From Nitrospiraceae bacterium (GTDB lineage Bacteria; Nitrospirota; Nitrospiria; Nitrospirales; UBA2166), in contig PBSN01000003.1 of the NCBI GenBank assembly GCA_002726235.1, positions 22,298 to 47,869 of the forward strand: DNA of 25,572 nt, read 5' to 3'. Below are positions 2,997 through 25,106 of this stretch, one piece after another. The notes below the pieces were generated by a model that had not been told where the DNA came from, ran no database searches, and saw only the letters and a list, made by a program, of their open reading frames with translations. Position 1 is the stretch's first letter; each line of letters opens with the position of its first letter. The translations under genes and the position numbers were made by a program.

Positions 2997-3028
2997 GACC
3001 TTACGCTTTCACGTCAGTGGTACGAGTG

Positions 3029-3928
3029 ATGACAATTGATGACATTCAATGCATTGGAGTTGTTGGCACGGGCCAAATGGGTTGTGGAATTGCTAATGTT
3101 GTCGCCATGAGCGGGTGGGATGTTCTCCTGCTGGACGTCAGTTCTGCCATCGTGAAGGTAGCATTGGAAAGAATTAAGGCGGACCTTGAACGTGCTGTTA
3201 CGAAAGGCATCCTCCATCCTGGCCACGTTGCGCCTTGCGTCGCCCGTCTTCACCCAATTGGGCGCATTGAAGAACTTGCGGAGGCCCAATTTGTAATTGA
3301 GGCAACTCCAGAAGATTCCGAACTCAAAACAGACCTCTTTCGGCAAATGGGTGTGTGTTGCAAACCGGAAACCATTTTGGCAAGTAACACCTCCTCCATC
3401 TCAATCACCTTGTTGGGGAAAGCAGCGGAGCGGCCTGATTGCGTCGTTGGCATTCACTTCATGAACCCAGCTCCAGTGATGCGGCTTGTCGAGATTGTAC
3501 GGGGGCTAGAGACCTCACAGGAGACGGTTGCAAGGGCAACGGGGCTTGTGATGCGAATGGGGAAAACTCCTGTGATCTGTATCGACACACCTGGATTCAT
3601 TGTTAACCGGCTCTTGATCCCCATGATCAATGAGGCCATTTGTCTCCTACAGGAGCGACAAGGGGAGTCGGATAGCGAGAGAACGCCGGAGGCTATTGAT
3701 TTAGCCATGACTGCTGGCGCGAACCACCCGCAGGGCCCCCTTGCTCTTGCTGACAGGATTGGCCTCGACACTGTCCTTGCAATCTGCGAGGTTCTTCATC
3801 ATGACTTGGGTGATTCCAAATTCAGTCCTAATCCGTTGCTCCGAAAATATGTAGAAGCTGGGTGGTTGGGGCGTAAAAGCGGTCGAGGGTTTTATGTGTA
3901 TCCCCCGCGATTAGCCATCGGAATTTAG
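3029..3928 (+). CDS. 3-hydroxybutyryl-CoA dehydrogenase
   Basis: An NAD-dependent 3-hydroxyacyl-CoA dehydrogenase of the short single-function type (299 residues). The N-terminal Rossmann fold has GTGQMG (13-18) and an acidic residue at the end of the second strand (Asp36). NTSSIS supplies the substrate-binding serine, and HFMNPAPV with Glu155 twelve residues after His143 reproduces the His/Glu catalytic pair. The C-terminal helical domain shows NHPQGPLALAD and ends with GRKSGRGFYVYPP. It would oxidise (S)-3-hydroxybutyryl-CoA to acetoacetyl-CoA for the thiolase just upstream. The start is uncertain: ATG 3029 is preferred because the fold begins right after it, but no clear Shine-Dalgarno is visible and GTG at 3017, 3020 or 3026 is possible. 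The linker QERQGESDSERTPE before the second domain is a few residues longer than usual. Confidence 0.9.
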   Translation: MTIDDIQCIGVVGTGQMGCGIANVVAMSGWDVLLLDVSSAIVKVALERIKADLERAVTKGILHPGHVAPCVARLHPIGRIEELAEAQFVIEATPEDSELKTDLFRQMGVCCKPETILASNTSSISITLLGKAAERPDCVVGIHFMNPAPVMRLVEIVRGLETSQETVARATGLVMRMGKTPVICIDTPGFIVNRLLIPMINEAICLLQERQGESDSERTPEAIDLAMTAGANHPQGPLALADRIGLDTVLAICEVLHHDLGDSKFSPNPLLRKYVEAGWLGRKSGRGFYVYPPRLAIGI

Positions 3929-3973: not shown

Positions 3974-5125
3974 GTGGATTTCGAGCTGACCAAAGAACAG
4001 AAGACCCTTCACGACATGATCCGCGATTTTGTTGCGAAGGAGATCGCTCCACACGCTCAGACTTTTGATGAACAAGGTGCGATATCAAAGGATCTGTTGG
4101 AGAAGATGGCAAAACTTGGCCTGATGGGAATCTGCGTCCCTTCAGAGTATGGCGGGGCAGGGATGGATTATCTGGCCTACGTCATCGTCTTAGAAGAAGT
4201 TTGCAAAGCCTCCGCGAGTGTAGGTTTGGCCATGACCGTGAACAATACGCTCTACGGCGATCCTCTCATGCGTTTTGGATCTCATGAACAAAAGCTTCGG
4301 TGGCTGGCCCCAGCCGCCAAGGGAGAGCGTTTGGGATGCTATGCCCTCACTGAGTCAGGTTCCGGATCGGATGCGATGGCGTTGGGTACCTCAGCGATTC
4401 AGGGTGACGATGGATTTGTTCTCAATGGGACGAAGCTGTTTATTACAAACGGTGAGATTTCCTCACAGGCAATCGTTTTCGCCACTATGGACAAGAGCAA
4501 GAGCCACAAAGGGATTACGGCCTTCCTTGTGGACAAGGCTACTCCAGGCTTCTCGGTAGGAAAGAAGGAACGAAAGATGGGACTGCTCGCCTCTGATACC
4601 TGTGAGCTGATTCTGGAGAATGTATCTGTTCATTCAGAGCAGGTTTTGGGCAATGTAGGCGAGGGCTACAGGGTCGCATTCTCGACGTTGGATGCGGGGC
4701 GAATTGGGATTGCAGCGCAGGCGTTGGGCATCGCCCAAGCTTGTCTCGATGCCGCGATCCCCTACGCCAAGCGGCGCTATCAATTTGGTAAGCCAATCGC
4801 AGAATTTCAAGCGATCCAGTGGAAATTGGCTGACATGGCTACGGAGATCGAAGCGGCACGCCTGCTTACCTATCGAGCCGCAGTGGTCAAAACAACCGGC
4901 CAGCAACGCTTCACTCGTGAGGCCTCAATGGCCAAGCTCTACGCCTCCGAGATGGTCAATCGGGTGGCTTCACACGCGATTCAGGTTTTCGGGGGGGCTG
5001 GCTATATGAAGGACCATCCTGTCGAGCGATACTTCAGAGATGCCAGAGCCATCCCACTCTATGAAGGGACGTCTGAGATACAGCGCCTCGTCATCGCGCG
5101 AGACCTTCTGAGAGAGGTGAAGTAA
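3974..5125 (+). CDS. Acyl-CoA dehydrogenase, short-chain (butyryl-CoA) type
   Basis: A complete 383-residue FAD acyl-CoA dehydrogenase beginning MDFELTKEQKTLHDMIRDF. Visible signatures are CYALTESGSGSDA (FAD and substrate contact), NGTKLFITNG, KMGLLASDTCEL, RRYQFGKPIAEFQAIQW and QVFGGAGYMKDHPVERYFRDA. The catalytic base is Glu364 in YEGTSEIQ, the position used by short- and medium-chain enzymes and not by isovaleryl-CoA dehydrogenase. It removes two hydrogens from an acyl-CoA and reduces ETF, encoded in the minus-strand module of this window. The GTG start has CAAAGGG eight bases upstream. The gene ends TAATG, overlapping the start of the mutase large subunit by one base, which makes n-butyryl-CoA, the predicted mutase product, a natural substrate. 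2-Methylbutyryl-CoA is the main alternative. Confidence 0.92.
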   Translation: MDFELTKEQKTLHDMIRDFVAKEIAPHAQTFDEQGAISKDLLEKMAKLGLMGICVPSEYGGAGMDYLAYVIVLEEVCKASASVGLAMTVNNTLYGDPLMRFGSHEQKLRWLAPAAKGERLGCYALTESGSGSDAMALGTSAIQGDDGFVLNGTKLFITNGEISSQAIVFATMDKSKSHKGITAFLVDKATPGFSVGKKERKMGLLASDTCELILENVSVHSEQVLGNVGEGYRVAFSTLDAGRIGIAAQALGIAQACLDAAIPYAKRRYQFGKPIAEFQAIQWKLADMATEIEAARLLTYRAAVVKTTGQQRFTREASMAKLYASEMVNRVASHAIQVFGGAGYMKDHPVERYFRDARAIPLYEGTSEIQRLVIARDLLREVK

Positions 5126-6720
5126 TGCAAGAGTGCCCTTCGAGAGTTACATCTCTATCTGGGTTGGAAATTGATCAAGTGTATTCAACCGATGTCCTCA
5201 AGGGCTGGGCCGCCGACACAGACCTCGGAAACCCAGGCGCATTTCCGTATACCCGTGGGCTCTATTCGGCTATGTATCGGCGTCGACTGTGGACAATGCG
5301 CCAATTCGCCGGATTCGGTACGGCTAACGATACCAACCGCCGAATGAAGTATCTCCTCAAACACGGCCAAACCGGTCTCAGTGTCGCCTTTGACATGCCC
5401 ACACTCATGGGCTTGGATGCAGATGATTCCCTCGCACGCGGTGAAGTAGGACGCTGTGGTGTGACAATCTCATCTTTGAGCGACATGGAATCTCTTTTTG
5501 AGAACATCCCGTTGGACAAAATCACCACGTCGATGACCATCAATGGGCCTGCCGCCATCATATTTGCCATGTACCTCGCAGTGGCGGAGCGACGCGGAAT
5601 TCCGTTTGAGCGACTTGGGGGCACACTTCAGAACGATATTCTCAAAGAATATATTGCTCAGAAAGAGTGGCTGTTCGCACCAGAACCGCACATTCGGTTA
5701 ATCACCAATACGATTGCCTATTGTGCTCAACATGTTTGGAAGTGGCATCCGGTCAGTATCAGTGGTTACCACATTCGCGAGGCCGGATCGACAGCAGTTC
5801 AGGAATTGGCGTTTACTCTCTACAACGGGCTCACATATGTGGATGCTACGGTCAATGCCGGCCTTGCCGTGGATGCTTTCGCTCCTCAGCTTTCATTTTT
5901 CTTCAACGTTCACAACGATTTTTTTGAAGAAATAGCGAAGTTCAGAGCAGCTCGTCGATTGTGGGCACGTGAGATAGAGCGACGCTACCATCCGAAGGAT
6001 CCGCGCTCTCTCCAGCTCCGTTGCCACGCCCAGACTGCCGGGTGTTCCCTTACGGCGCAACAGCCGATGAACAACGTGGTGAGGGTCAGCCTCCAAGCGC
6101 TCGCCGCGGTGTTGAGTGGGACCCAATCTCTCCACACGAATTCTCTGGATGAGACGCTAGCGTTGCCGACCGAAGGAGCAGTGAAGTTGGCACTTCGGAC
6201 GCAGCAGATTATTGCCAATGAGAGTCATGTCATCAACACCGTGGACCCTCTCGGCGGCTCCTACTATATCGAATCGTTAACCAATCGCATGGAAGCAGGG
6301 GCCCGTGAGTACTTCAAGAAGATTGATGACATTGGTGGGATGGTAAAGGCCATCGAACGCGGCTTTCCACAACGGGAAATTTTCGAGGCCTCACATCGAT
6401 ATCAACAGGAAGTGGAGCAGAACGAACGAAGCATTGTCGGGGTCAACGCATTCGTTGACGATGTGCCATGCTCGGTCCCGACCCTCAAGATTCACCCTGA
6501 GGTGGAATTGGAACAGGTGACGCGTCTTTCTGAGTTGCGAAAAAGCCGAGACGCCGTGCGAGTTGCTGACACCCTGCGGAAGTTGCACAAAGCTGCGATC
6601 ACGTCTGAGAATCTGATGCCCTATCTCATCGACGCGGTCAAATCCTATGCGACTCTGGGCGAGATCTGCGGAAGGCTCAAGGAGGTGTTCGGGACGTATT
6701 CCGAACCGATTGTACTGTGA
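5125..6720 (+). CDS. icmA: B12-dependent acyl-CoA mutase large subunit, predicted isobutyryl-CoA mutase (methylmalonyl-CoA mutase family)
   Basis: A 531-residue TIM-barrel subunit of the methylmalonyl-CoA mutase family without a fused B12 domain. Family blocks include LWTMRQFAGFGTANDTNRR, GLSVAFDMPT, GTLQNDILKEYIAQ, SISGYHIREAGSTAVQE, RAARRLWAR and TQSLHTNSLDETLALPT. Against the Propionibacterium methylmalonyl-CoA mutase the visible spacing is gapless with an offset of 28: Gln169, Tyr215 and His216 match Gln197, Tyr243 and His244. The substrate-carboxylate residues Tyr89 and Arg207 are replaced by Phe61 and Gln179. Phe/Gln is the published signature of isobutyryl-CoA mutase, so the likely reaction is isobutyryl-CoA to n-butyryl-CoA. 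The B12-binding subunit is encoded two genes downstream and the MeaB-type chaperone five genes downstream. Automatic annotation would probably say methylmalonyl-CoA mutase. Family assignment is very secure; substrate is inferred. Confidence 0.9.
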   Translation: MQECPSRVTSLSGLEIDQVYSTDVLKGWAADTDLGNPGAFPYTRGLYSAMYRRRLWTMRQFAGFGTANDTNRRMKYLLKHGQTGLSVAFDMPTLMGLDADDSLARGEVGRCGVTISSLSDMESLFENIPLDKITTSMTINGPAAIIFAMYLAVAERRGIPFERLGGTLQNDILKEYIAQKEWLFAPEPHIRLITNTIAYCAQHVWKWHPVSISGYHIREAGSTAVQELAFTLYNGLTYVDATVNAGLAVDAFAPQLSFFFNVHNDFFEEIAKFRAARRLWAREIERRYHPKDPRSLQLRCHAQTAGCSLTAQQPMNNVVRVSLQALAAVLSGTQSLHTNSLDETLALPTEGAVKLALRTQQIIANESHVINTVDPLGGSYYIESLTNRMEAGAREYFKKIDDIGGMVKAIERGFPQREIFEASHRYQQEVEQNERSIVGVNAFVDDVPCSVPTLKIHPEVELEQVTRLSELRKSRDAVRVADTLRKLHKAAITSENLMPYLIDAVKSYATLGEICGRLKEVFGTYSEPIVL

Positions 6721-7559
6721 GACTTGGTGCATTTGACATTCATCCGGTCACGGATGGTCGATTTCGCCTCGATGGCGGAGCCATGTTCGGGACCGTGCCA
6801 CGGGTGTTGTGGGAGCAATTCTGTCCAGCCGATGACCGGCACCGCATTCAGTTAAGTGTGACGCCTTTGCTCATCAAAGCCAATGGGAAAAACATTCTCG
6901 TGGATACTGGCTTGGGGGATAAAGACGATGCGAAATTTCAAGAAATGTTTGCGGTGGATCGGGTTCCTCCTCTCTATGAATCGTTGAGCCGATTGGATCT
7001 TACTCCCGAGGACATTGACATTGTCATTAATACGCATTTGCATTTCGATCATGCCGGAGGAAACACTGTAGAGGGCCAGAATTCTGGCATCGTTTCTGCC
7101 TTCCCGAAGGCTACCTATTGTGTCCAACGTGGAGAGTATGACGATGCGATTCAGGCCAACGAACGGACCAGGGCGAGCTACCGGCAGCAGAACTTTGTTC
7201 CGGTTACCCAAATGAATCAATGGGCATTGCTGGACGGCAATACCGAATTGTTACCAGGGATCTCGGTTGTTGTGACTCAGGGACACACCACTCATCACCA
7301 GAGTGTGAAGATTGAGTCGGAAGGACGCATCGCCTTTTACCTTGGAGATCTAATTCCGACCGTCTCTCATCTGCCGCTTTCGCACATTATGGGCTATGAC
7401 CTCTTTCCTTTGCAGACATTAGAGACTAAGCGATGGGTTCTTGATCGCGCGTTTGAGGAAACTTGGCTCATGGTTTTCGATCACGATCCGCATGTCCAAA
7501 TAGGCTATGTGCGTAAAGATGGCGATGGGAAACTTAGGTTCGAAGAGGCAAAGGAATGA
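6717..7559 (+). CDS. Metallo-beta-lactamase-fold hydrolase, substrate unknown
   Basis: A 280-residue MBL-fold protein with the metal motif THLHFDH (His107, His109, Asp111, His112) followed by AGG. The other expected ligands are also visible: a His in [10 protein letters not shown], an Asp in YLGDLIPT and a His in FDHDPH. The long loop around residues 125-185 resembles the AHL-lactonase/alkylsulfatase-like branch of MBL hydrolases. No signal peptide is seen, so it is cytoplasmic. It starts with GTG overlapping the mutase stop (GTGA) and its stop overlaps the start of the B12-binding subunit (ATGA), so it is encoded exactly between the two halves of one enzyme. A thioesterase, lactonase or repair hydrolase acting on a mutase substrate or by-product would fit, but nothing in the sequence identifies the substrate. 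Confidence 0.85.
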
Positions 7560-7957
7560 CCGTGGCAACGCTACCTCTTCGCGTATTGCTTGGAAAGGTT
7601 GGTCTGGACGGGCATGACCGAGGGATCAAGTTGGTCGTCCGGGCACTCCGCGATGCCGGCATGGAAATTATTTATTGTGGTCTGCACCAGACTCCGGAAG
7701 AGGTTGTGGCGACGGCCATTCAGGAAGACGTGCAGGTAATCGGCCTGAGCCTGTTGTCTGGTGCCCATCACTACCTTTTGCCACGCGTGCTGGCCCTCTT
7801 GAAAGAACAGGGCGCGGACGACATTGCGGTCATCGCAGGAGGCATCATTCCAGATGAGGATATCCCGATGCTCAAGAACGCCGGCATACGCATGATCTTC
7901 CAACCTGGGACACCTATGAGTGAGATCGTCGATTCGGTGAAAGGGCTCAAGGAATGA
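7556..7957 (+). CDS. icmB: B12-binding small subunit of the acyl-CoA mutase
   Basis: A 133-residue free-standing cobalamin-binding domain. It shows the full base-off/His-on signature: [13 protein letters not shown] with the cobalt-ligating His20 in DxHxxG, then [10 protein letters not shown] and AGGIIPDED lining the nucleotide tail pocket, and a PGT near the end. It binds adenosylcobalamin and caps the large subunit encoded two genes upstream. A separate small subunit of about this length is the arrangement of Streptomyces isobutyryl-CoA mutase and of some archaeal mutases, whereas many bacterial methylmalonyl-CoA mutases carry this domain fused. The start ATG overlaps the MBL gene stop and its own stop overlaps the next gene, both as ATGA. 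Starting at [10 protein letters not shown] leaves only a short lead before the first strand. Confidence 0.93.
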
Positions 7958-9237
7958 GACCGGTCTACATGATCAGTGGCGGAATCACCAAGTTTGCCAA
8001 GGCACATATCAACAAAGACTTTCGATTGATGGTCAAAGAGGCGTATGACTATGCCTTGCGTGATGTGCCGCGATTCTCAAAAGATATGATTGATGGGGCC
8101 GTTGGGTCCTATTTCTCTGACCACTTCACGAGGCAATTGAAAGCTGCCAGCATGGTGCAGGATTACCTTGGACTCTGTCCCAAGCCATCGAAGAGAGTCG
8201 AGGGAGGAGGCGCCACGGGGGGACTTTGTTTTCAGTCGGCTTGGGAGGCGATTGCGTCTGGGCGGATGAACTGCTGTTTGGCCTTTGGGTTCGAAACCAT
8301 GTCGAGGGTCAATACCTGGAAGGGAAACGAATTCATCGCGCTGGCATCGGATACAAACTTTGATTTTCCTGTGGGGGGGTTTTACTCGGGCTATTACGCG
8401 ATGATGGTCCAGCGTCATATGTACGAATTTGGGACAACCGTTGAACAGTTGGCGATGGTGTCGGTTAAGAATCATGTCAATGCGCTATGCAATCCTTATG
8501 CCCAGAAGGCCAAGCGGCTCTCGGTAAAGCAAGTAAGGGAGTCACCGATGGTCGCCACGCCGCTGACAATGGAGGACATCTGCACGATGTCGGATGGGGC
8601 GGCGACGTGCATCCTGGCTTCTGAGGAGCTTGCAGCAAAGGTGTGCGATCGTCCCGTAAGGATTGCCGGGGTAGGATCTGGCTCGGATACGATGCGGATG
8701 GCTGATCGTCCTCATGACAAAGTGATGCTCCTGCCGCATGAGCAAGAATCGGATTATCTTCACCTTCGGTATCCTGGAGTCCATTCCTTTCGGGGAGGTC
8801 GGATGGCCGGAAAGCTTGCCTATGAGATGGCAGGTATTAGGAATCCACTCGAGGAACTGAGTTTTGTCGAACTTCACGATGCCTACACCTCGTCGGAGAT
8901 TCAGACCTATGAGGATCTCGGATTATGCAAATATGGAGAAGGCGGGCGCTTTGTGGAGAGTGGTGCGCCATTCATGGCAGATGTGAACTACGGACTCGAT
9001 ATACCAAAGGCAGGACGTCTGCCGGTCAATCCTTCGGGAGGGCTGTTGGCTTGTGGGCACCCGGTGGGCGCGACAGGGCTGATGCAAGCTGTGTTTGCCT
9101 TCTGGCAACTGCAGGGAACAACTAGCAAACACCTTGGAGACGACACGTTGCAGGTGCAACAGGCCAAACGCGGATTGATTCATAGCCATGCGGGTACTGG
9201 AACATATATCACCGTTTCCATTTTGGAGGCCACATGA
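7954..9237 (+). CDS. SCP2/lipid-transfer-type thiolase homologue lacking the nucleophilic cysteine
   Basis: A 427-residue thiolase-fold protein of the SCP-x/DUF35-partner group. The C-terminal half keeps [11 protein letters not shown] (the HDAF-type motif), [14 protein letters not shown] with His369, and the HAGTG end. At the site where catalytic thiolases have Cys-x-(Ser/Thr)-Gly this protein reads GGGATGG, so Gly86 stands at the nucleophile position; the nearest cysteine is Cys92. Cys-less members of this group paired with a DUF35 protein include the steroid side-chain retro-aldolase Ltp2, so a C-C lyase or a non-thiolytic role is possible. Overlap with both neighbours is ATGA, and the next gene is exactly the expected DUF35/OB-fold partner. 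Substrate unknown; a short branched 3-hydroxy- or 3-oxoacyl-CoA is a reasonable guess from context. Confidence 0.88.
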
Positions 9238-9713
9238 AGAGAGGCATTCATATGCACGCACAGGGATCCGTTCTCTTGGGTGTCGATCCATTGGTCTTGC
9301 TCGATCATTACGAGATCGACTATCACCACAGCTATGCCCAAGACTCGCCATTCTTTGTTGGTCTGAGCAAAAAGAAACTCCTCGGCTCGTGCTGTACGGA
9401 ATGTGGATACATCTACGCGACCCCTCGGTCTCATTGTATGGAGTGTGGAGCTGCAACAGATTGGTGCGAACTACCATTAACAGGCCGAGTTCACACGTTC
9501 ACCACCTGTTATTTTGGAGGTGAAGTCTTTCTTGACGAAACCCCGTTTACATTAATCCTTGTGGAGTTCGACGGCGTTGATTCGTTGTTTCTGGCTAGAC
9601 TGAAAGGCATGGAACCGTCGACTGTCCACATCGGTTTGCCGGTAGTTGCTCGTTTTGCCAAGACTCCATCGTTTAAGGTGACCGATGTGTGGTTCGAGCA
9701 CACCCACAGGTAA
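9234..9713 (+). CDS. DUF35 zinc-ribbon/OB-fold partner of the thiolase homologue
   Basis: A 159-residue protein with an N-terminal helix, a zinc ribbon formed by CTECG and CMECG (two CxxC pairs about 15 residues apart), and a C-terminal OB fold (GRVHTFTTCYFGG, FTLILVEFDG, LFLARLKG, VVARFAKT). This is the standard architecture of DUF35 proteins that form obligate complexes with SCP2-type thiolases, as in archaeal acetoacetyl-CoA thiolase, BbsA/BbsB and ChsH2/Ltp2. It starts by ATGA overlap with the thiolase homologue, strongly suggesting a one-to-one complex. A second in-frame ATG seven codons later could also serve. Its 3' end overlaps the MeaB-type gene by 29 bases. Confidence 0.9.
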   Translation: MKRGIHMHAQGSVLLGVDPLVLLDHYEIDYHHSYAQDSPFFVGLSKKKLLGSCCTECGYIYATPRSHCMECGAATDWCELPLTGRVHTFTTCYFGGEVFLDETPFTLILVEFDGVDSLFLARLKGMEPSTVHIGLPVVARFAKTPSFKVTDVWFEHTHR

Positions 9714-10449
9714 AGAACCATTAACCCCAGACGTATTAGCCGAACGGGTTAAAAATGGGGACATCCGAGCCATCGCTTGTGTGATCACGGCGCTCGAAAG
9801 GCACGAGCCTCTTGGAAGTATGACCTTGGGACTCCTTGATACAAACACGCGATGCTCATCGGTGATTGGGGTGACGGGCTACCCGGGTGCAGGAAAGAGT
9901 ACATTAATTGATCAACTTGCGAAGGCGTACAGGCGGCAGGGGGAAAAGGTTGGGATTATTGCGGTAGATGCGACGAGCCCGTTGACAGGAGGAGCCCTTC
10001 TCGGCGACCGCATTCGTATGCAGCAACACACGCAAGATCTCGGGGTCTTCATCCGAAGTATGGCCACGCGTGGTCAACACGGAGGTCTTGCACCCTCAAC
10101 ATACAAGGCAGTGCGGGTGTTAGAAGCAGCTGGCTATGGGGTGATTTTTGTTGAGACCGTGGGCGTGGGGCAAGATGAAGGGGACATCACTCATGTCGTC
10201 CAGACCGTCGTGGTTGTTGTGGCTCCAGGGTTGGGGGACGAAGTACAGGCGATGAAGGCTGGTTTGTTTGAAATCGCACACATCGTTGTTGTGAACAAAG
10301 GTGATCGTGAGGGGGCAGATACGACCGTGCGAGAACTGCAACAATGGCTTCCTCAAGTTCTCCGCGCAGTGGCCTTAAAAAGCGGCGGTATTTCCGAACT
10401 TGTTGAAGCGATCGAGAGTCATCAACGACAGGGCATGGTGCCTCCATGA
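9685..10449 (+). CDS. meaB: MeaB/ArgK-type GTPase, chaperone of the B12-dependent mutase (short form)
   Basis: A G3E-family GTPase that gates loading of intact adenosylcobalamin and protects the mutase during turnover. Visible motifs are the Walker A GYPGAGKST, VDATSPLTGGALLGDRIRM, ATRGQHGGLAP, ETVGVGQDE (switch II region) and the base-specificity motif NKGD where most relatives have NKAD. At 254 residues it is shorter than typical MeaB/ArgK proteins (about 320-330). It ends just after the G domain (ISELVEAIESHQ), so the C-terminal helical dimerisation extension appears to be missing. The start ATG has AAGGTG four bases upstream inside the DUF35 gene. The stop overlaps the following acyl-CoA dehydrogenase as ATGA. 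Co-location with the mutase subunits makes the partner clear. Confidence 0.92.
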   Translation: MCGSSTPTGKEPLTPDVLAERVKNGDIRAIACVITALERHEPLGSMTLGLLDTNTRCSSVIGVTGYPGAGKSTLIDQLAKAYRRQGEKVGIIAVDATSPLTGGALLGDRIRMQQHTQDLGVFIRSMATRGQHGGLAPSTYKAVRVLEAAGYGVIFVETVGVGQDEGDITHVVQTVVVVVAPGLGDEVQAMKAGLFEIAHIVVVNKGDREGADTTVRELQQWLPQVLRAVALKSGGISELVEAIESHQRQGMVPP

Positions 10450-11600
10450 ATTTTGATCTGACAGAAGAGCATCGGCTTATCCGAGAAACAGTTCGCAGGT
10501 TTGCCGAGCAGGAAATCACCCCTGTCGCGGCAGAACATGATCGTGCCAGCCGATTCCCCGATGAACTTGTTCACCGTATGGCAACGTTAGGGTTGTTGGG
10601 TGGACCAATACCGAAAGAATATGGAGGCTCAGGCCTTGATTTCGTCAGCCATGCTATTCTCACAGAAGAAGTGGGAAAGGCCGATTCCTCACTTCGAACT
10701 ACTATATCGGTACAAGTCTCATTAGTGGAACTGAGTATTTTGCATTGGGGCACGGAAGAACAAAAAAAGCGCTATCTTCCCAAACTCTGTACTGGCCATC
10801 TCTTGGGATGCTTCGGGCTGACCGAGCCAAACGCCGGCAGCGATCCTGCCAGCATGGAGACAACCGCGACTCGCTACGAGAAGCAGTGGGTGCTGAATGG
10901 CAGCAAGATCTGGATCTCAAACGCCACCGTCGCCGATGTGGCCCTTGTCTTCGCACAAACTGATAAAACCAAGGGGCACAATGGGATAGCAGCCTTTCTT
11001 ATCGACAAGGGGACATCAGGATTCTCAACCCGCCCGATTACTGGAAAGCTGGGGCTTCGTTCGTCTGATACAGGAGAGTTACTGTTTGAAAATTGTATCG
11101 TTTCAGATAGTTCCCTGCTTGCATCAGCGGGGCAGGGGTTCAAAGTGGCCATGTCGGCATTGGATAATGGACGGTATAGCGTCGCCGCTGGGAGCGTTGG
11201 AATCATTCAAGGCTGTCTCGATGCCTGCAAACAGTATGTGACGACTAGGCAGCAGTTTGGCAAACCGATAGGACGTTTTCAACTTATCCAAGACATGATT
11301 GCCCGCATGGCGGTTGATCTTGATGCGGCCAGATTGCTTGTGTATCGTGCTGGCCACCTGAAGAATCTAGGCCTGGTGACAACGATTGAGACGTCAATGG
11401 CGAAGTATTTCGCCTCTGAGGCAGCTGTCCGTGCGGCTAGTGATGCCGTTCAAATATTTGGTGCGTACGGCTACTCGGAAGAATCCATAGTGGCACGCTA
11501 CTACCGGGATGCCAAAGTCGCGACAATTTATGAAGGTACGTCACAAATTCAAAAACTGCTGATCGGGTCCCATGTGCTGGGGATGAAAGCGTTTGTGTAG
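10446..11600 (+). CDS. Acyl-CoA dehydrogenase, second paralogue of the operon
   Basis: A complete 384-residue FAD acyl-CoA dehydrogenase with GCFGLTEPNAGSDPASMETTA, NGSKIWISNA, KLGLRSSDTGEL, RQQFGKPIGRFQLIQDM and the catalytic Glu363 in YEGTSQIQ. It differs from the first paralogue in parts that recall glutaryl-CoA dehydrogenase: ADSSLRTTISVQVSLV contains an Arg where that enzyme has its substrate-carboxylate Arg, the GCFGLTEPN-GSDP-SMET block is nearly the same, and the protein ends GMKAFV. The rest of the sequence is ordinary short-chain type. The substrate may be a dicarboxylic or second branched acyl-CoA; I would not commit. It delivers electrons to ETF. It is the last gene of the plus-strand operon, facing a minus-strand gene across 129 bases with no strong terminator visible. 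Confidence 0.91.
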   Translation: MNFDLTEEHRLIRETVRRFAEQEITPVAAEHDRASRFPDELVHRMATLGLLGGPIPKEYGGSGLDFVSHAILTEEVGKADSSLRTTISVQVSLVELSILHWGTEEQKKRYLPKLCTGHLLGCFGLTEPNAGSDPASMETTATRYEKQWVLNGSKIWISNATVADVALVFAQTDKTKGHNGIAAFLIDKGTSGFSTRPITGKLGLRSSDTGELLFENCIVSDSSLLASAGQGFKVAMSALDNGRYSVAAGSVGIIQGCLDACKQYVTTRQQFGKPIGRFQLIQDMIARMAVDLDAARLLVYRAGHLKNLGLVTTIETSMAKYFASEAAVRAASDAVQIFGAYGYSEESIVARYYRDAKVATIYEGTSQIQKLLIGSHVLGMKAFV

Positions 11601-11729: not shown

Positions 11730-12332
11730 TCATTTTTCCAGCACCTCATCATATTTGCTCTCTTCCAGTTGAGCGAGGTAGTCCACAATTCTGAACAGTG
11801 TTTTAGCATTGAGCGTCGTACCGAAGTCATCGGGCATCAAGTCCGCGTCAAAACCTGGAACCACATAGAGGTTGGGATCAATGATAGATTCTAGGATGTA
11901 TTCGCGAACCGAGGGGGCTACCCCGTGATACCCAGAATCTTTGATCCGTTTTGGCGCATTTGTTTTCAGATACAACTCTGGGCCAAGATCACCAGACTTG
12001 GCTCCTCGAATTCCTGGGATGGAATGGCAGACCGTACACTGAGCCTTCTCGAAAATTTCTGGGAGCGATTCGTTGCCTGTCGTCAGAAGTCCACTGGTGC
12101 TGTCACCACCATGACCCGCATCTACTGTTGATGATACACAAAAGCGGCCGCGGCATTGGGAGATCCTTGCGGCCGCCTCTGCGAAGTCTAGAGCGATCCA
12201 CGCATGGAGGGTTGCCTGATCGACATGCCCTTGTTTGCCATTACTGATCACCTCTTTTACGTGTATCATTGCCTCTTTGATATACGAGGCCGCTTCCTTT
12301 TCAAAAAAAATTGAGTTTCTGCAATGCATCAA
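11730..12332 (-). CDS. Cytochrome c-containing C-terminal portion of a frame-disrupted secreted protein
   Basis: The frame encodes a helical segment (AASYIKEAMIHVKEVISNGKQGHVDQATLHAWIALDFAEAA in short pieces resembling SmbP-like metal-binding helices) followed by a monohaem cytochrome c domain. The haem motif is CTVCH and the probable distal ligand is the Met in LMPDDFG near the C terminus, followed by a last helix (AKTLFRIVDYLAQLE). The domain therefore looks like a class I periplasmic cytochrome. The ATG at 12332 has no signal peptide and lies inside the preceding frame, so it is unlikely to be a real start for a haem protein that needs export. It is best read as the continuation of the 12301-12813 frame after loss of one T in the T8 tract. 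Location behind ETF-QO/ETF suggests a role in electron transfer, without proof. Confidence 0.75.
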   Translation of the reverse strand: MMHCRNSIFFEKEAASYIKEAMIHVKEVISNGKQGHVDQATLHAWIALDFAEAAARISQCRGRFCVSSTVDAGHGGDSTSGLLTTGNESLPEIFEKAQCTVCHSIPGIRGAKSGDLGPELYLKTNAPKRIKDSGYHGVAPSVREYILESIIDPNLYVVPGFDADLMPDDFGTTLNAKTLFRIVDYLAQLEESKYDEVLEK

Positions 12333-12813
12333 GTTCGTGTTTCAGGTTCTCCAGTGCTGTACTCGTGCGCCTATCGGATTCCACAGCATGACTTTCTCCC
12401 CAATGGCGCATGACACACTCGGCATAAGGGATTGCCTGACTTATATGATCAAGCAACCCGCCCAACCCAACCGCTGTTTTCGGGGTTGAGCTTACCTCCC
12501 ATTTCTTCGTGCCGATATCGTTTGTATCGGAATTGCCATTTTGCGACCCACTTGAATTCGTCTCCAGGTTACGGAGCAAAACTTTGGCTAGAGAATCCGC
12601 ATTCGAAAGGTTGTGCCGTGTCCATTGATAGAGAATCTTGTCCATGGCTTCATCAACGGATGCAGAGGTTTCTATTGCGCTAGAGCTATGGTGCTGCCTT
12701 TCAATTCCTTCAGGAATCACCAGCACCTCATGAGCGATCACTACATTGCTCAGAGCGACTAATGCAAAGAGTACAAATCCAATCAGTATTGAAGGCCCTT
12801 CTATCTTTATCAC
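12301..12813 (-). CDS. Signal-peptide-bearing N-terminal portion of the same frame-disrupted secreted protein
   Basis: The GTG start at 12813 has an excellent Shine-Dalgarno (AGGGGAGG on the minus strand, 12818-12825) five bases upstream. The product begins with MIKIEGPSILIGFVLFALVA and then SNVVIA-HE, a Sec signal peptide with a plausible cleavage after Ala. The mature part is predicted helical with several His residues (MRHWGESHAVESDRR, ALENLKHELDALQKL) and no domain I can name. The frame stops right after the homopolymer T8 (LNFF then TGA). With seven T it would run straight into the overlapping frame and give one protein of about 360 residues: signal peptide, helical metal-binding-like region, cytochrome c. 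As it stands the protein is truncated before the haem domain. The upstream gene is ETF alpha, 158 bases away. Confidence 0.7.
   Translation of the reverse strand: MIKIEGPSILIGFVLFALVALSNVVIAHEVLVIPEGIERQHHSSSAIETSASVDEAMDKILYQWTRHNLSNADSLAKVLLRNLETNSSGSQNGNSDTNDIGTKKWEVSSTPKTAVGLGGLLDHISQAIPYAECVMRHWGESHAVESDRRTSTALENLKHELDALQKLNFF
12303..12310 (-). other. T8 homopolymer at the frame break (A8 on the plus strand)
   Basis: Eight consecutive A on the plus strand sit exactly where two overlapping minus-strand frames must be joined. One base fewer restores a continuous reading frame (LNFF followed by EKEAAS). This may be a sequencing or assembly indel, a true frameshift, or a transcriptional slippage site. 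Confidence 0.85.
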
Positions 12814-12971: not shown

Positions 12972-13970
12972 CTAGGCGCATTTTTTCCGAAGTTTCTTCA
13001 CTTCTTCGGTCAGTACCGGCAAAATATCGAAGAGGTTCCCGACTATCCCATAAGTAGCCAACTTGAAAATTGGAGCGGCGGGATTGGAATTAATCGCAAC
13101 AATGACTCGCGCCGAAGACATTCCCGCTTGGTGCTGGATCGCTCCTGAAATTCCACACGCGACATAGCACTGAGGCGAGACGGTCTTGCCGGTCAGTCCA
13201 ACCTGATAGCTATGTGGTTTCCACCCAGCATCCACAGCCGCGCGTGATGCGCCAACGGCACCGCCGAGTGCGTTGGCGAGCTCTTCAACTAATTTGAAAT
13301 TTTCCGGTCCTTTCAGTCCACGCCCGCCTGAAACGATGATCGGTGCCTCAGTCAACTCGCGCTTTCCACCGACTGTTTGCTGAACCTCGCGGACTTTTGC
13401 GACGGACCGGGTTCTGGTCGTAGGAAGTGCGAGGTATTCGATTGGGATGCTCGTATTCGGTTTTAGTTCCAACGCAGGAAACACGTTTTGGCGGATGGTC
13501 ACAACCTGCAAGGCCAGGCTGACCGGTTTAACTATGGCCATCAGCTTGCCTCCATACATAGGTCTGGTTGCCACAAGTGAACAATCTTCTTCCATTTTCA
13601 ATGAGACGCAATCCTGTACCAGTGCCGTCTTTAGTTTGGCGGCAAGCCTCGGTGCAATGTCTTTTCCCATTGCAGTAGCACCCATGCAAATGGCAACCGG
13701 CTGAAGGCGTGCAGCGAGATCCGACAAGATGGTGGCATACAACTCGGCGGAGTAATGAGCCAGTGAAGCGTTCTCAGCTACGTACACGCGTGAGGCCCCA
13801 TAAGCCGAGAGGTCATTCGCTGAGGAAGCCACATCCGAACCAATGATGCACGCACATATGGCCACTCCAGAAGATGTCCCCAAGCGATGTGCTTCCCCCA
13901 GCGCCTCAAGCCCGACGTTCTTAAGTTGACCGTCACGTTGTTCGCAGAACACGAGAATCGAGTTTGGCAT
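12972..13970 (-). CDS. etfA: Electron transfer flavoprotein alpha subunit
   Basis: A 332-residue ETF alpha subunit. The N-terminal half is the ETF alpha/beta fold (ILVFCEQRDGQL, CMGATAMGKDIAPRLAAKL, TRPMYGGKLMA). The C-terminal FAD domain has the conserved SGGRGLKGPENF, ASRAAVDAGW, QVGLTGKTVSPQCYVACGISGAIQH and INSNPAAPIFKLATYGIVGN. It carries the FAD that collects electrons from acyl-CoA dehydrogenases and hands them to ETF-QO. It follows ETF beta after 26 bases in the same direction. The start ATG is the only one that gives a normal N terminus. Linked genes for two acyl-CoA dehydrogenases and ETF-QO make this the classical beta-oxidation ETF and not a bifurcating type. Confidence 0.96.
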   Translation of the reverse strand: MPNSILVFCEQRDGQLKNVGLEALGEAHRLGTSSGVAICACIIGSDVASSANDLSAYGASRVYVAENASLAHYSAELYATILSDLAARLQPVAICMGATAMGKDIAPRLAAKLKTALVQDCVSLKMEEDCSLVATRPMYGGKLMAIVKPVSLALQVVTIRQNVFPALELKPNTSIPIEYLALPTTRTRSVAKVREVQQTVGGKRELTEAPIIVSGGRGLKGPENFKLVEELANALGGAVGASRAAVDAGWKPHSYQVGLTGKTVSPQCYVACGISGAIQHQAGMSSARVIVAINSNPAAPIFKLATYGIVGNLFDILPVLTEEVKKLRKKCA

Positions 13971-13996: not shown

Positions 13997-14800
13997 TCAG
14001 ATTAATTTTTCTTCCTCATGCAGAATCCGAACGAGTTCTTTGACGGCAGTAGAGGTGTCACCATCAAGGATACGACCCGTCAGTCGTGTTGGTGGTGGCT
14101 CTACACGGAGGGTTTTGAGTTTTGCTCCGGACGCGCCAAGCCTTCCTGGATCTATGCCGATATCCTCACAGGTCCAGGTGTTGAGTGGTTTTTGTTTGGC
14201 CTTCATAATTCCGGGGAGAGAGGGGTATCGAGGTTCGTTCAGCCCTTTCTGGCAGGTGATCACAACGGGAAACGACGCTTCTACCACTTCGATGCCATCC
14301 TCGACTTGTCGATGAGCAACCACTGCTCGTGATACTGGGTGAACTTCGAGCTTGTTCACAACGGCAACATGTGGAATGCCAAGAAGTTCTGCAACTTGGA
14401 TTCCTACGGTACCACCATCGTCGTCTACTGCTTGCTTGCCGAAAAGTAAAAGGTCAAAAGGCAACCGTTGTATGGCAGAGGTTAATGCCGTTGCTGTCGT
14501 AAAACTGTCGCCTCCGTGAAAGGCCGGACCGTCCAACAGGATGGCTTTGTCAGCGCCCATCGCTAGGCAGGTTCGCAGGGCTTCTTCAGGTTTCTGGGAC
14601 TCATGTTGGCGCATGGACAACACTGTGACTTCACCTGCTCCTAGGCGTTCCTTGATTTGCAGTGCCTCTTCGACAGCAAATTCGTCATAAGGGTTTACGA
14701 TAAAACTCAGGTTTGACCGGTCTATATCATTTCCATCAGCTACAATCGTCAGCTTTGATTCAGTAGCTGGGACTTGTTTCATGCATACGATGATGTTCAT
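13997..14800 (-). CDS. etfB: Electron transfer flavoprotein beta subunit
   Basis: A 267-residue ETF beta subunit starting MNIIVCMKQVPATESKL. It shows NPYDEFAVEEALQIKE, LAMGADKAILL, FGKQAVDDDGGTVGIQVAELLG and the family signature VEASFPVVITCQKGLNEPRYPSL followed by PGIMKAKQKPL (split here for length). It binds AMP and supports the FAD domain of the alpha subunit. It lies between the amino acid dehydrogenase (17 bases upstream) and ETF alpha (26 bases downstream), so the three are probably one transcript with ETF-QO. No unusual features were seen; length and motifs match the family. Confidence 0.96.
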   Translation of the reverse strand: MNIIVCMKQVPATESKLTIVADGNDIDRSNLSFIVNPYDEFAVEEALQIKERLGAGEVTVLSMRQHESQKPEEALRTCLAMGADKAILLDGPAFHGGDSFTTATALTSAIQRLPFDLLLFGKQAVDDDGGTVGIQVAELLGIPHVAVVNKLEVHPVSRAVVAHRQVEDGIEVVEASFPVVITCQKGLNEPRYPSLPGIMKAKQKPLNTWTCEDIGIDPGRLGASGAKLKTLRVEPPPTRLTGRILDGDTSTAVKELVRILHEEEKLI

Positions 14801-14817: not shown

Positions 14818-15933
14818 CTAGAATGCTGACCACCGCCTGTGACGCATGGCAGCACGCACCCGTTGCTCCGCGAGCTTCAGCGCGGCCTCCCGGGGTGTGC
14901 AGTGGTCCGCTCGCGAGTCCTCTAACACTCGCCGAGTGTTGTGTCGGACCTTTTCTTTCACAGTCTGCATTGCAACAATCTCACTCGCACCCTGCCATTC
15001 CATCGCCGCACAGATTACCCCGCCAGCATTCGCGATGAAATCAGGAAGACAGATGATCCCTTTGTTGTTGAGGAATCGTTCGGCTTCGTCCGTCACAGCG
15101 ATATTTGCTCCTGGCGAAATGAGGCGCGTTTTCAGACGTTCTACATTCCCTTTATGCACAACATCCGGGCGGGCCGCTGGAATCCAGATCTCACATTCGA
15201 TATCGATCAATGCATCTTGGTTTTGCTTCTCTCCATCTTCATACTCGATGACGCTTTTGCCACTTTTTACCAGTCCTATCAATGCGTCAATGTCGATACC
15301 TTTGGGATTTGCGATCGACCCTCTTGAATCCGCGACGCCCACCAAGTTGGCTCCCTGTTCTCCAAGAAACTTCGCCGCGTGCATTCCTACTGCGCCAAAT
15401 CCTTGAATCACCATCCGAGTACCCTTGATTCCCAAATTGCAGAACTCAAGTGCGACCTCGGTTGCATGTCTCACACCCCAACCGGTAGCACCGATTTCAT
15501 CCAAAGGAATCCCACCGAGTTCGCGAGGCAAACCGGTTGCCCGACCAATTTCGTCATGGATCCACGCCATGCATTCCTCGTCGGTGCCCATGTCAGGTCC
15601 AAAGATATACTCGACGGTGTCTCGCAGCGCGCAGGCAAAGGCGCGAATTCGGCGTTCTTTGTCTTGTTTTGGCATGGCAGGGTCCCCGTGAAACACGCTT
15701 TTTCCACCACCGTGAGGGAGCCCGGCCGCGGCATTTTTGAAGGTCATCGTGCGCGCAAGTCGGAAGCATTCTTCGGTGCTGACATCTTCTGCCATACGCA
15801 TGCCGCCGATCGATGGGCCGATGGCGATGTTGTCGATGACAACGATGCCCTGTAGCCCCACGGATGGCTCATGCACATGGATAATCTTCAGCGGTCCCAG
15901 ATCATCAGCATAGTTGAGCATGTTATCTATCAT
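14818..15933 (-). CDS. Leucine/valine-type amino acid dehydrogenase (Glu/Leu/Phe/Val dehydrogenase family)
   Basis: A 371-residue NAD(P)-dependent amino acid dehydrogenase. Catalytic lysines are Lys66 in TMTFKNAAAGLP and Lys78 in HGGGKSVFHGDP, followed by GPDMGTDEE and the Rossmann motif IQGFGAVG. The residue that binds the glutamate side-chain carboxylate in true glutamate dehydrogenases (the Lys of PYKGG) is Ile42 here (GPSIGGMRM), as in leucine dehydrogenases, where a hydrophobic residue is found. The FKNAAAGL-GGGK-GDP run is also leucine-dehydrogenase-like. The predicted reaction is reversible oxidative deamination of Val/Leu/Ile to the 2-oxoacids used by the dehydrogenase at the start of the window. 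AGGAGG lies seven bases before the ATG. The region around GLPRELGGIPLDEIG is closer to glutamate dehydrogenases, so specificity needs caution. Confidence 0.88.
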   Translation of the reverse strand: MIDNMLNYADDLGPLKIIHVHEPSVGLQGIVVIDNIAIGPSIGGMRMAEDVSTEECFRLARTMTFKNAAAGLPHGGGKSVFHGDPAMPKQDKERRIRAFACALRDTVEYIFGPDMGTDEECMAWIHDEIGRATGLPRELGGIPLDEIGATGWGVRHATEVALEFCNLGIKGTRMVIQGFGAVGMHAAKFLGEQGANLVGVADSRGSIANPKGIDIDALIGLVKSGKSVIEYEDGEKQNQDALIDIECEIWIPAARPDVVHKGNVERLKTRLISPGANIAVTDEAERFLNNKGIICLPDFIANAGGVICAAMEWQGASEIVAMQTVKEKVRHNTRRVLEDSRADHCTPREAALKLAEQRVRAAMRHRRWSAF

Positions 15934-16056: not shown

Positions 16057-17766
16057 TTAAAGACCCTGGTAGCGGGGCCCTCCCTCCGCAGGTGCGCGCC
16101 AAATGATGTTTTGGACGCCATCGCCCTCACTCACGTCGATTGGATCCTTGATGACACAGGTTTTGCAATGCACGCAGTTCGAAAAATTGACGCGAATGTG
16201 GAGGTCATCCCCTTGGCCGATGAGTTCATACACCTTGGCTGGGCAGAAATACGTGCATGGCGCGTCACCGTATCGAGGGATGCAATCGGTGAGGCAACGG
16301 GAAGGGTCGACGATCCGGATATGTGAAGGTTGGTCCTCACGGTGTTCAGTGCCAGAATGAAACACATCCGTCAGTTTGTCGGCGAGGACCCCAGCATCAT
16401 ATTGGGCTGGTTCATGAGTCCTTTGCTTGGCTATGGCATTTTCATGATGCTGAAGATATGTGAAGTCTTCGCGCATACGGCCGGGTCGGGTTGGGCCAAG
16501 ACCGGTCCACATCGTCAACCCGCCGAGTGCTAAACCAGGGTAGAAACCCAAGGCAAACATTCTTCGGAAGTTGCGGACATGATGCAGATCCCGTATGACG
16601 TAGGTTCCTTCTAGGCGCGACTCATATGAGGACAAGGCGGAAGCAGACACATTGCCCGAGTGCAGTGCATCGACAATTGTCTCAGCTGCCACCATCCCAC
16701 TCTTCATGGCATAGTGAATCCCTTTGAGATATGGGACATTGAGAAACCCTGCCGAGTCGCCAATAAGCAATGCGCCGTCTGTGTACAAGCGTGGAATGGC
16801 AAAAACCCCTCCTTCAGGGAGCGTTTTCGCTCCATAGGCGACGACTACCCCTCCCGCAATGAACTGTTGAATCAGGGGATGTTTTTTGAGTTGTTGGAGC
16901 TGCGCGTGCGGATCCATTCGAGGATCGTCCCAATCCAACCCACACACTATACCAACCGCATACAGATGATCGTCGATGCCATAACAAAATCCCCCACCGA
17001 ACACGCGTGATCCAAGCGGATACCCAAGGGTGTGAATGGCCAAGCCAGGGGACCCTGGATTTCTGACGCGGATCATTTCCTTTACTCCTAGCGCATAGGA
17101 TTGTGGAGTTTTTCCTTTTCGCAAGTTGAATTTATGGATTACATCCTCAGCCAAAGTTCCACGCGGTCCTTCTCCGAATACCGTAATTTTCGCCTGGATT
17201 CGTGTTCCAGGTTCATAGTTCGCCTTCCTGCCACCATCGGAATCCAGCCCCTTTTCTCCGGTCAGAACCCCACACACGTAGTCGTTGTCGTACAAGACCT
17301 TAGTCCCACACGTTTCGTTGAATAGATGGACTCCGGCATCCTCAACCTGCTGTGCGAGCCACAGGTTGAGTTTTTGAAGGGATCCAACGTAACAGCCCGT
17401 ACTTCGGTAGGCGGGTGGAATCACCCAAGGCGGAATCTGGTAGGCGTGTTCAGTCGTCAGATAGTGCACTTCGTGTGCAGTAGCTGTAACTGGAAATGGA
17501 AATTCTTGTTTCGCATAATCAGGCATCAGTTCCTCAAGTGCTCGCGGATCGAAGAGGGCCCCGGAGATTGCGTGGGCGCCAACATCCCGTCCTTTCTCAA
17601 TAATCGCAATCTGAGGCTCTAACTTCCGGTCTCGAAGGGCACCCGCGGCTATCCGTTCGTTAGAGCGTGCTACGAGCTTAGTAAGATGCAATGCGCCAGC
17701 TAGGCTAGCTGGGCCTCCTCCAACGAAAAGCACATCGACATCGAGTGAGTTGAAATTTTCACTCAT
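16057..17766 (-). CDS. Electron transfer flavoprotein-ubiquinone oxidoreductase (ETF-QO)
   Basis: A 569-residue membrane-associated flavoprotein that passes electrons from reduced ETF to quinone. The N terminus has the FAD-binding motif VLFVGGGPASLAGA and IIEKGRDVGAHAISGA. The centre has VFGEGPRGTLAEDV, VGIVCGLDWDDPRMDPH and LLIGDSAGFLNVPYLKGIH. The C terminus carries the 4Fe-4S ligands CPAKVYE and NCVHCKTCVIKDP (about Cys508, 531, 534, 537). All are standard for mitochondrial-type ETF-QO, implying a respiring host with ubiquinone or menaquinone. I chose ATG 17766 (MSENFNSL) because AAGGAG (17774-17779) lies seven bases before it; a TTG at 17784 would overlap that ribosome site. It is the first gene of the minus-strand module, 123 bases before the amino acid dehydrogenase. 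Confidence 0.95.
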   Translation of the reverse strand: MSENFNSLDVDVLFVGGGPASLAGALHLTKLVARSNERIAAGALRDRKLEPQIAIIEKGRDVGAHAISGALFDPRALEELMPDYAKQEFPFPVTATAHEVHYLTTEHAYQIPPWVIPPAYRSTGCYVGSLQKLNLWLAQQVEDAGVHLFNETCGTKVLYDNDYVCGVLTGEKGLDSDGGRKANYEPGTRIQAKITVFGEGPRGTLAEDVIHKFNLRKGKTPQSYALGVKEMIRVRNPGSPGLAIHTLGYPLGSRVFGGGFCYGIDDHLYAVGIVCGLDWDDPRMDPHAQLQQLKKHPLIQQFIAGGVVVAYGAKTLPEGGVFAIPRLYTDGALLIGDSAGFLNVPYLKGIHYAMKSGMVAAETIVDALHSGNVSASALSSYESRLEGTYVIRDLHHVRNFRRMFALGFYPGLALGGLTMWTGLGPTRPGRMREDFTYLQHHENAIAKQRTHEPAQYDAGVLADKLTDVFHSGTEHREDQPSHIRIVDPSRCLTDCIPRYGDAPCTYFCPAKVYELIGQGDDLHIRVNFSNCVHCKTCVIKDPIDVSEGDGVQNIIWRAPAEGGPRYQGL

Positions 17767-18181
17767 GGCTTTCTCCTTCAACACTGTAGGTAGCGGAGCA
17801 ATTTGTGTACCATCAGAGACTTACAAAGCGAGCCAGTGCGAAAGGGACTGAGGCAAGCCGACCAAGTCCGGCAACGCTATGTGTGGGGAAGTGCCACAGA
17901 AGAGAAACAAGCCGACATCGGCATTGTTGCGCTCAGCAATATTTCATCATTCAGTAGCGCAATCAATACAATCGGTACAATTCAAGACTGTACTTGGCTA
18001 GCTAGTACGAACGGTCGTAAAAACGACGATATCTCGTGCGTCAGTGCAGGAAGACTCCTGTCGTCAGCATCCAGCCAGCGATTGGCAGCATCTCTCGAAA
18101 AGCGACAATGGTACGAACTTTGCTTTCCAGTAACTAACGGGTACGGCAATCTCCCACTCGATAGGGACAAAAGGACAACCA
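17767..18181. promoter_or_regulatory. Intergenic region between divergent ETF-QO and PrpD-like operons, with several inverted repeats
   Basis: I find no convincing gene in these 415 bases. An open frame from 17803 runs into the PrpD gene and has low-complexity, unconserved composition. The region should hold the promoters of both operons, although I cannot name clear -35/-10 boxes. Inverted repeats are visible: TTGCGCT (17927-17933) with AGCGCAA (17956-17962), GTACA (17975-17979) with TGTAC (17989-17993), and GTCGT (18014-18018) with ACGAC (18023-18027) around AAAA. These are candidate operator sites for a shared regulator; none matches a motif I can identify. Confidence 0.5.
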
Positions 18182-25070: not shown

Positions 25071-25106
25071 GGCAGTACCGCTCTGCCTCCCTATGGCATG
25101 GTGCAC

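Follow-up and report, generated by a model that had tools for sequence, protein, structure and literature searches.

The described systems closest to the locus reported here are isobutyryl-CoA mutases (ICMs), which exist as separate large and small subunits (IcmA and IcmB of Streptomyces cinnamonensis) or as a single fused chain (IcmF). In Syntrophothermus lipocalidus, isobutyrate is isomerised to butyrate and then β-oxidised, and a gene cluster encodes the split mutase together with an adenosyltransferase and the chaperone MeaB (PMC5017805). IcmF is widely mis-annotated as methylmalonyl-CoA mutase (MCM) (PMC7764203); a passage of PMC7238569, after Jost et al. 2015, separates these mutases by two specificity-determining sites, which are Tyr and Arg in MCM. 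Here we analyse a 25,572-nucleotide stretch (the window) of contig PBSN01000003.1 (positions 22,298–47,869) from a Nitrospiraceae bacterium, encoding the large subunit of an acyl-CoA mutase, mutL (window positions 5125–6720, plus strand), and a small B12-binding subunit, mutS (7556–7957, plus strand). Together, these probably form a two-subunit ICM that feeds valine carbon into butyryl-CoA oxidation. Residues, phylogeny, gene neighbourhood and gene content were observed directly, and from them we infer the activity, its direction and its physiological substrate.

The mutL product, 531 amino acids long from an ATG start, is the predicted substrate-binding subunit (icmA-like) of an ICM and is of a Phe61/Gln179 type. 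Gln169, Tyr215 and His216, catalytic in the acyl-CoA mutase family, are all present. Phe61 (within TMRQFAGFGT) and Gln179 (within LKEYIAQKEWLF) occupy the columns of Tyr89 and Arg207 of the Propionibacterium shermanii MCM (offset 28, author numbering), and the alignment contains no gaps around either specificity site. As a self-check of the alignment, the column aligned to Phe61 holds Tyr in 1REQ and Phe in 5REQ, the latter being the Y89F mutant. The residues read directly from this gapless alignment confirm the claim of the initial annotation that the catalytic set is kept while the carboxylate-binding Tyr89 and Arg207 have Phe61 and Gln179 as their counterparts. In an NCBIfam profile search, mutL scores 726 bits against TIGR00641, and the top-ranking model, ‘methylmalonyl-CoA mutase N-terminal domain’, is a generic one; against the full-length MCM equivalog model it reaches 603 for a cut-off of 876, partly because the fused C-terminal domain is absent. 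The top PDB match is the large subunit of 2-hydroxyisobutyryl-CoA mutase (HCM; 4R3U, 524 bits, near full-length alignment), and MCMs also align along nearly all of mutL. A single-sequence AlphaFold model of mutL had a pLDDT (predicted local distance difference test score) of 34 and was set aside. The icmB-like mutS product matches TIGR00640 (157 bits) and chain C of 4R3U (6e-46), and its DxHxxG cobalamin-binding motif reads DGHDRG.

A Pfam-profile survey of 245 Nitrospirota genomes, blind to the two-site signature, found a mutase in 50, of which 41 carry Phe/Gln (3 from partial genes), 9 carry Tyr/Arg and none is mixed. The Phe/Gln pairing in mutL is not a chance event. Frequencies are taken from this survey because a separate set of 80 relatives is skewed towards Phe, one of its search patterns being WTMRQFAG. 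Across 148 homologues (126 Phe/Gln and 22 Tyr/Arg), columns 61 and 179 are the only ones out of 531 that are more than 90% fixed for different residues; because these same columns served to define the two groups, what is informative is the lack of any further such column.

Phylogenetic analysis used 67 proteins, with columns 61, 88 and 179 deleted before the tree was built; the final tree omits two Streptomyces rows in the wrong frame and a single long, odd one. All 19 Tyr/Arg proteins, including the human and P. shermanii MCMs, form one group (bootstrap 99, Shimodaira–Hasegawa-like approximate likelihood ratio test (SH-aLRT) 95). HCM proteins form a separate clade (100/100), which arises inside the Phe/Gln grade and excludes the window protein. 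The latter groups with Nitrospira Phe/Gln proteins (100/100). A check for placement among the proven MCMs thus put it outside the Tyr/Arg clade even with the signature columns deleted, and constraining it to join the Tyr/Arg proteins is 166 log units worse (approximately unbiased (AU) test, P = 5.5e-9). The Phe/Gln proteins are a grade in which IcmF sits on a long branch, and the bootstrap (correlation 0.979) had not fully converged; the tree rules out MCM and HCM and by itself proves no kinship with any particular ICM.

The comparison of gene neighbourhoods covered Nitrospirota loci for which some 12–25 kb of sequence was available. A methylmalonyl-CoA epimerase gene, called at 40% identity or more to the Ilyobacter enzyme, lies near 7 of 9 Tyr/Arg mutases and near 0 of 20 Phe/Gln mutases, whereas a 3-hydroxybutyryl-CoA dehydrogenase gene lies near 17 of the 20 Phe/Gln mutases and none of the 9 Tyr/Arg ones (Fisher P about 2e-5 for each contrast, ignoring relatedness among loci that are phylogenetically non-independent). 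Weak epimerase matches (28–33%) at some Nitrospira loci correspond to the position of a glyoxalase-fold gene beside a homogentisate-dioxygenase-like gene, as checked in locus L081. In the window, mutL is surrounded by genes for acyl-CoA dehydrogenases, 3-hydroxybutyryl-CoA dehydrogenase and thiolase, a context suited to the use of butyryl-CoA. The IcmF genes of Ideonella and Priestia also adjoin 3-hydroxybutyryl-CoA dehydrogenase and acyl-CoA dehydrogenases; Ideonella IcmF scores 1875 bits against the crystallised IcmF 4XC6, and in the alignment both specificity sites of IcmF match those of mutL, being Phe and Gln.

The source genome (G000; an assembly of 1.87 Mb, 90.65% complete) encodes one mutase and a cobalamin adenosyltransferase. 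Absences were checked gene family by gene family. No full-length carboxyltransferase of the propionyl-CoA carboxylase (β) or methylcrotonyl-CoA carboxylase kind was found in G000, where the hits in this family are a pair of half-domain genes of the sort that acetyl-CoA carboxylase would provide. The epimerase, methylmalonate-semialdehyde dehydrogenase and 3-hydroxyisobutyrate dehydrogenase families gave only sub-cut-off matches in the same genome. By the usual route, an MCM would therefore receive no methylmalonyl-CoA. The sole crotonase-family gene lies in a FadB-like fusion away from the window. Judged by gene content, the classical valine route looks incomplete in G000 and the ICM route looks complete. 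The tree, the residues identical to those of IcmF, the neighbourhood and the failure to find enzymes supplying methylmalonyl-CoA all support the proposal, made in the initial annotation, that the mutase is an ICM. That annotation had also invoked the separate small subunit and MeaB; both are encoded in the operon but do not discriminate, because HCMs and split MCMs carry them too.

Several observations weigh against an ICM. The proven ICM in the tree is the distant, long-branch IcmF; S. cinnamonensis IcmA is not represented, and no IcmA was recognised in the two Streptomyces megaplasmid records examined for it. The assembly is incomplete, so the absences listed above carry limited weight. The mutL protein sits on a branch longer than those of its Nitrospira relatives, and three near-invariant positions carry other residues in it (Ala for Pro at 185, Trp for Pro at 205 and Ser for Gly at 331). 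Finally, IcmF, which has the same two residues, also interconverts pivalyl-CoA and isovaleryl-CoA (PMC10481361), and Phe/Gln alone therefore does not set the substrate. This side activity is the main residual doubt about the substrate of mutL. It leaves some room, though not much, for a Phe/Gln mutase acting mainly on another branched acyl-CoA, such as 2-methylbutyryl-CoA (giving n-pentanoyl-CoA) or isovaleryl-CoA (giving pivalyl-CoA). The oxoacid dehydrogenase of the operon could supply all three branched acyl-CoAs, and the genome showed no full-length methylcrotonyl-CoA carboxylase-type gene that would fix the fate of isovaleryl-CoA. However, we know of no proven main activity of a Phe/Gln mutase other than that on isobutyryl-CoA and n-butyryl-CoA; pivalyl-CoA has no evident onward route in the genome, and 2-methylbutyryl-CoA can be oxidised directly to propionyl-CoA and acetyl-CoA, which would suit the methylcitrate genes of the window. 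We consider similarly unlikely a broader version, in which the Nitrospiria Phe/Gln mutase and the lactonase-like hydrolase nearly always adjacent to it would form a mutase module that takes a different branched acyl-CoA from isobutyryl-CoA, or that includes a dedicated side step by hydrolysis, within a widespread and overlooked amino-acid operon of nitrifiers.

The other readings fare worse. That mutL is an MCM, as it is usually annotated, agrees with the best-scoring NCBIfam models and with the name used in Nitrospira papers, but both carboxylate-binding residues are replaced, membership of the Tyr/Arg clade is rejected, the equivalog score falls short (in part through the missing domain), and propionyl-CoA, for which neither carboxylase nor epimerase was found, would be handled by the methylcitrate cycle encoded in the window; we regard this reading as very improbable. 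In ethylmalonyl-CoA mutase the second site is an Arg that serves the free carboxylate, whereas a residue comparison (there being no ethylmalonyl reference in the tree) places Gln179 there in the window protein. An HCM is suggested by the closest solved structure, 4R3U, which is 49% identical over the aligned part, and by the branching of HCMs inside the Phe/Gln grade. Yet the residues at Phe61 and Ala88 of the window protein are Ile and Asp in HCM, the HCM clade excludes that protein, and the order of small subunit, AMP ligase, MeaB and mutase found in Methylibium and Xanthobacter does not occur in the window, leaving this assignment with hardly any probability. Equally slight is the chance that this genome's copy of the mutase is degenerate or has poor activity. 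Its branch length and three departures would fit such decay, the more so as five close Nitrospira relatives show none, but a few other Phe/Gln proteins show 2 to 4, the reading frame is intact with all catalytic and cofactor motifs, and both subunits, MeaB and the flanking genes are intact and overlap as in a single transcript. The long branch and the departures may reflect faster evolution in this small genome.

If mutL and mutS do form an ICM, the following route can be proposed. Valine would be deaminated and the resulting 2-oxoacid oxidised to isobutyryl-CoA by the E1/E2 complex. The two subunits would assemble an adenosylcobalamin (AdoCbl)-dependent ICM, which the MeaB-type GTPase (9685–10449) would load with cofactor. 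Following the general chemistry of the AdoCbl mutase family, homolysis of the Co–C bond would yield a 5′-deoxyadenosyl radical that takes a hydrogen from isobutyryl-CoA, and 1,2-migration of the CoA-carbonyl group and return of the hydrogen would then give n-butyryl-CoA. With Phe61 and Gln179 in place of the carboxylate-holding Tyr and Arg, the pocket would fit a plain methyl group. Butyryl-CoA would be oxidised by an acyl-CoA dehydrogenase working with electron-transferring flavoprotein (ETF) and ETF:quinone oxidoreductase, and a hydratase whose gene lies outside the window would act with 3-hydroxybutyryl-CoA dehydrogenase and thiolase to complete the conversion to two acetyl-CoA.

The genes from the start of the window to position 11,600 are all on the plus strand. 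The window opens within the gene for E1-β of a 2-oxoacid dehydrogenase complex (1–603, 3′ part), identified from the translated reading frame and a gene order conserved in Nitrospira; the E1-α gene lies directly upstream (L117, 18511–19590). There follow the lipoyl E2 of the complex (604–1812; 346 bits, succinyltransferase family, below cut-off), an acetyl-CoA C-acyltransferase (thiolase; 1794–2996; TIGR01930, 436 bits, above cut-off), 3-hydroxybutyryl-CoA dehydrogenase (3017–3928; NF004474, 346 bits, below the cut-off of 408) and an acyl-CoA dehydrogenase (3974–5125) with the catalytic Glu motif YEGT, whose best NCBIfam match is AcrC (acryloyl-CoA reductase; 454 bits, below cut-off) and which is a candidate butyryl-CoA dehydrogenase. 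Its stop codon overlaps the start codon of mutL (TAATG). Between mutL and mutS, overlapping each by 4 bases, sits a gene for a metallo-β-lactamase-fold hydrolase with an HLHFDH motif (6717–7559; PF00753, 79 bits; PDB 3ESH); it is YtnP-lactonase-like (204 bits, under the family cut-off) and methyl-parathion-hydrolase-like. Downstream of mutS are an SCP2-type thiolase-like protein (7954–9237; NF004982, 664 bits, cut-off 695), the closest PDB entry to which is the archaeal acetoacetyl-CoA thiolase 6ESQ, its Zn-ribbon/OB-fold partner of the DUF35/ChsH2 type (9234–9713; PF01796 47 bits and PF12172 25 bits, both above cut-off), the MeaB-type G-protein chaperone for AdoCbl loading (TIGR00750, 260 bits, cut-off 240.75; P-loop GYPGAGKS and NKGD motifs) and a second acyl-CoA dehydrogenase (10446–11600; AcrC 403 bits and glutaryl-CoA dehydrogenase 397 bits, both below cut-off; YEGT). 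From the first acyl-CoA dehydrogenase onwards, successive genes overlap by 1, 4, 4, 4, 4, 29 and 4 bases, which implies a single transcript.

On the minus strand lie ETF α (12972–13970) and ETF β (13997–14800), both with ETF-family matches below cut-off, an amino-acid dehydrogenase of the Glu/Leu/Val-dehydrogenase family (14818–15933; family matches) and an ETF:quinone oxidoreductase-like protein (16057–17784), a tentative assignment with FixC-like matches below cut-off and a C-terminal cysteine-rich motif in the translation. Two overlapping small frames on the same strand (11730–12813) separate ETF from the second acyl-CoA dehydrogenase; one has a CxxCH haem-like motif and a weak, sub-cut-off match to a small metal-binding protein, and the other matches no family. 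The methylcitrate-cycle genes comprise prpD-like (18182–19588, plus; PrpD 200 bits, below cut-off), prpB (19585–20493, plus; TIGR02317, 385 bits, above cut-off) and a citrate/2-methylcitrate synthase (23922–25106, minus; NF010639 573 bits and TIGR01800 464 bits, both above cut-off), with an AMP ligase and a threonine-synthase-like gene between the last two. Upstream of the window (L117:9068–15607, on contig C3 of G000), translations suggest a set of genes similar to those of the arginine succinyltransferase pathway (AstA, AstB, AstD and an aminotransferase), with a sigma-54-type regulator after them; the end of this contig thus has the look of an island for amino-acid catabolism.

Relatives of the hydrolase adjoin mutL in most Nitrospiria Phe/Gln loci and in none of the Tyr/Arg loci examined, where the only match is a weak one (37%) elsewhere in L174. 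At most Nitrospira loci the interval from mutS to MeaB is filled by genes of a leucine route, for a carboxyltransferase, an enoyl-CoA hydratase and an HMG-CoA (3-hydroxy-3-methylglutaryl-CoA)-lyase-like protein (for example L081:12853–16257); in the window (7954–9713), L004, L122 and L180, it holds the SCP2-type thiolase and the OB-fold protein. The SCP2-type thiolase is better conserved across phyla than the mutase. In Nitrospira sp. S2bin.17 (L081:1093–3921), glyoxalase-fold (possibly 4-hydroxyphenylpyruvate dioxygenase), homogentisate-dioxygenase-like and fumarylacetoacetase-like genes precede E1-α, which suggests a tyrosine route beside the branched-chain operon in a nitrifier. Outside Nitrospirota, the Sphingobium plasmid mutases L160:2899–4575 and L161:2815–4536 adjoin a small subunit and MeaB; by alignment their pockets are Ile/Ser and Val/Val and the usual Gln/Tyr/His set appears to be missing. 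Provided that the alignment holds, these are possible mutases for unidentified substrates.

Nitrospira papers list mcmA1A2, mutA or ‘methylmalonyl-CoA mutase’ among B12-dependent enzymes or stress genes (PMC8115632, PMC11865330 and PMC12542776), in strains whose sequences lie outside the present comparison; PMC12542776 also notes the presence of prpCBD, which it cites as weakly expressed when nitrite is being oxidised. Our literature search found no text pairing ‘isobutyryl-CoA mutase’ with ‘Nitrospir’. Together with the top rank of the generic MCM model, the naming in those Nitrospira papers makes the suggestion in the initial annotation that the gene would be mis-annotated plausible and partly documented. 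Two genomes of the same order (G060 and G220) carry the Tyr/Arg type, so correction is needed strain by strain, and N. marina could own a genuine MCM-type enzyme. The mutases of these two genomes (L147 and L155) have Phe at the catalytic Tyr corresponding to Tyr215, with neither epimerase nor carboxylase nearby. Were the common Nitrospira gene an ICM, pathway reconstructions would lose their methylmalonyl-CoA route, and bacteria regarded as nitrifying autotrophs would have a complete-looking route to acetyl-CoA from valine or isobutyrate. Such annotations could be corrected by a simple rule of two residues, tested here on 50 Nitrospirota genomes. The assignment matters for annotation across Nitrospira and brings to light a conserved branched-chain catabolic operon in relatives of nitrifiers. 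The kind of enzyme is already known, and published Nitrospira papers speak of MCM in this lineage.

Compared with known systems, MCM (P. shermanii, human and the split form of other Nitrospirota) shares with the window protein the fold, the catalytic Gln, Tyr and His and the cofactor domain, but has Tyr/Arg instead of Phe/Gln, forms its own clade and has epimerase and carboxylase genes adjoining. HcmAB (4R3U) is the nearest solved structure and has the same split architecture and Gln at site 179; in 4R3U, Methylibium and Xanthobacter it differs by Ile and Asp at sites 61 and 88 and by its gene neighbours. IcmF (4XC6) has the same Phe/Gln pair and the same types of neighbouring genes, but is one fused chain of about 1100 residues (B12, G-domain and mutase) only distantly similar in sequence to mutL. 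The window has three separate genes, and an identification as fused IcmF was rejected on that ground and on the score against NF045497 (337.5 bits, cut-off 1500). The two-subunit ICMs, IcmA/IcmB of S. cinnamonensis and the split clusters of S. lipocalidus, resemble the window in that the large subunit and the small B12-binding one are encoded apart, that the cluster includes MeaB and that the substrate pocket is Phe/Gln, as quoted for ICM (Phe80/Gln198 in Streptomyces according to the initial annotation); unlike them, the predicted window system lies in a branched-chain oxoacid and methylcitrate operon and has a metallo-hydrolase gene between its two subunits.

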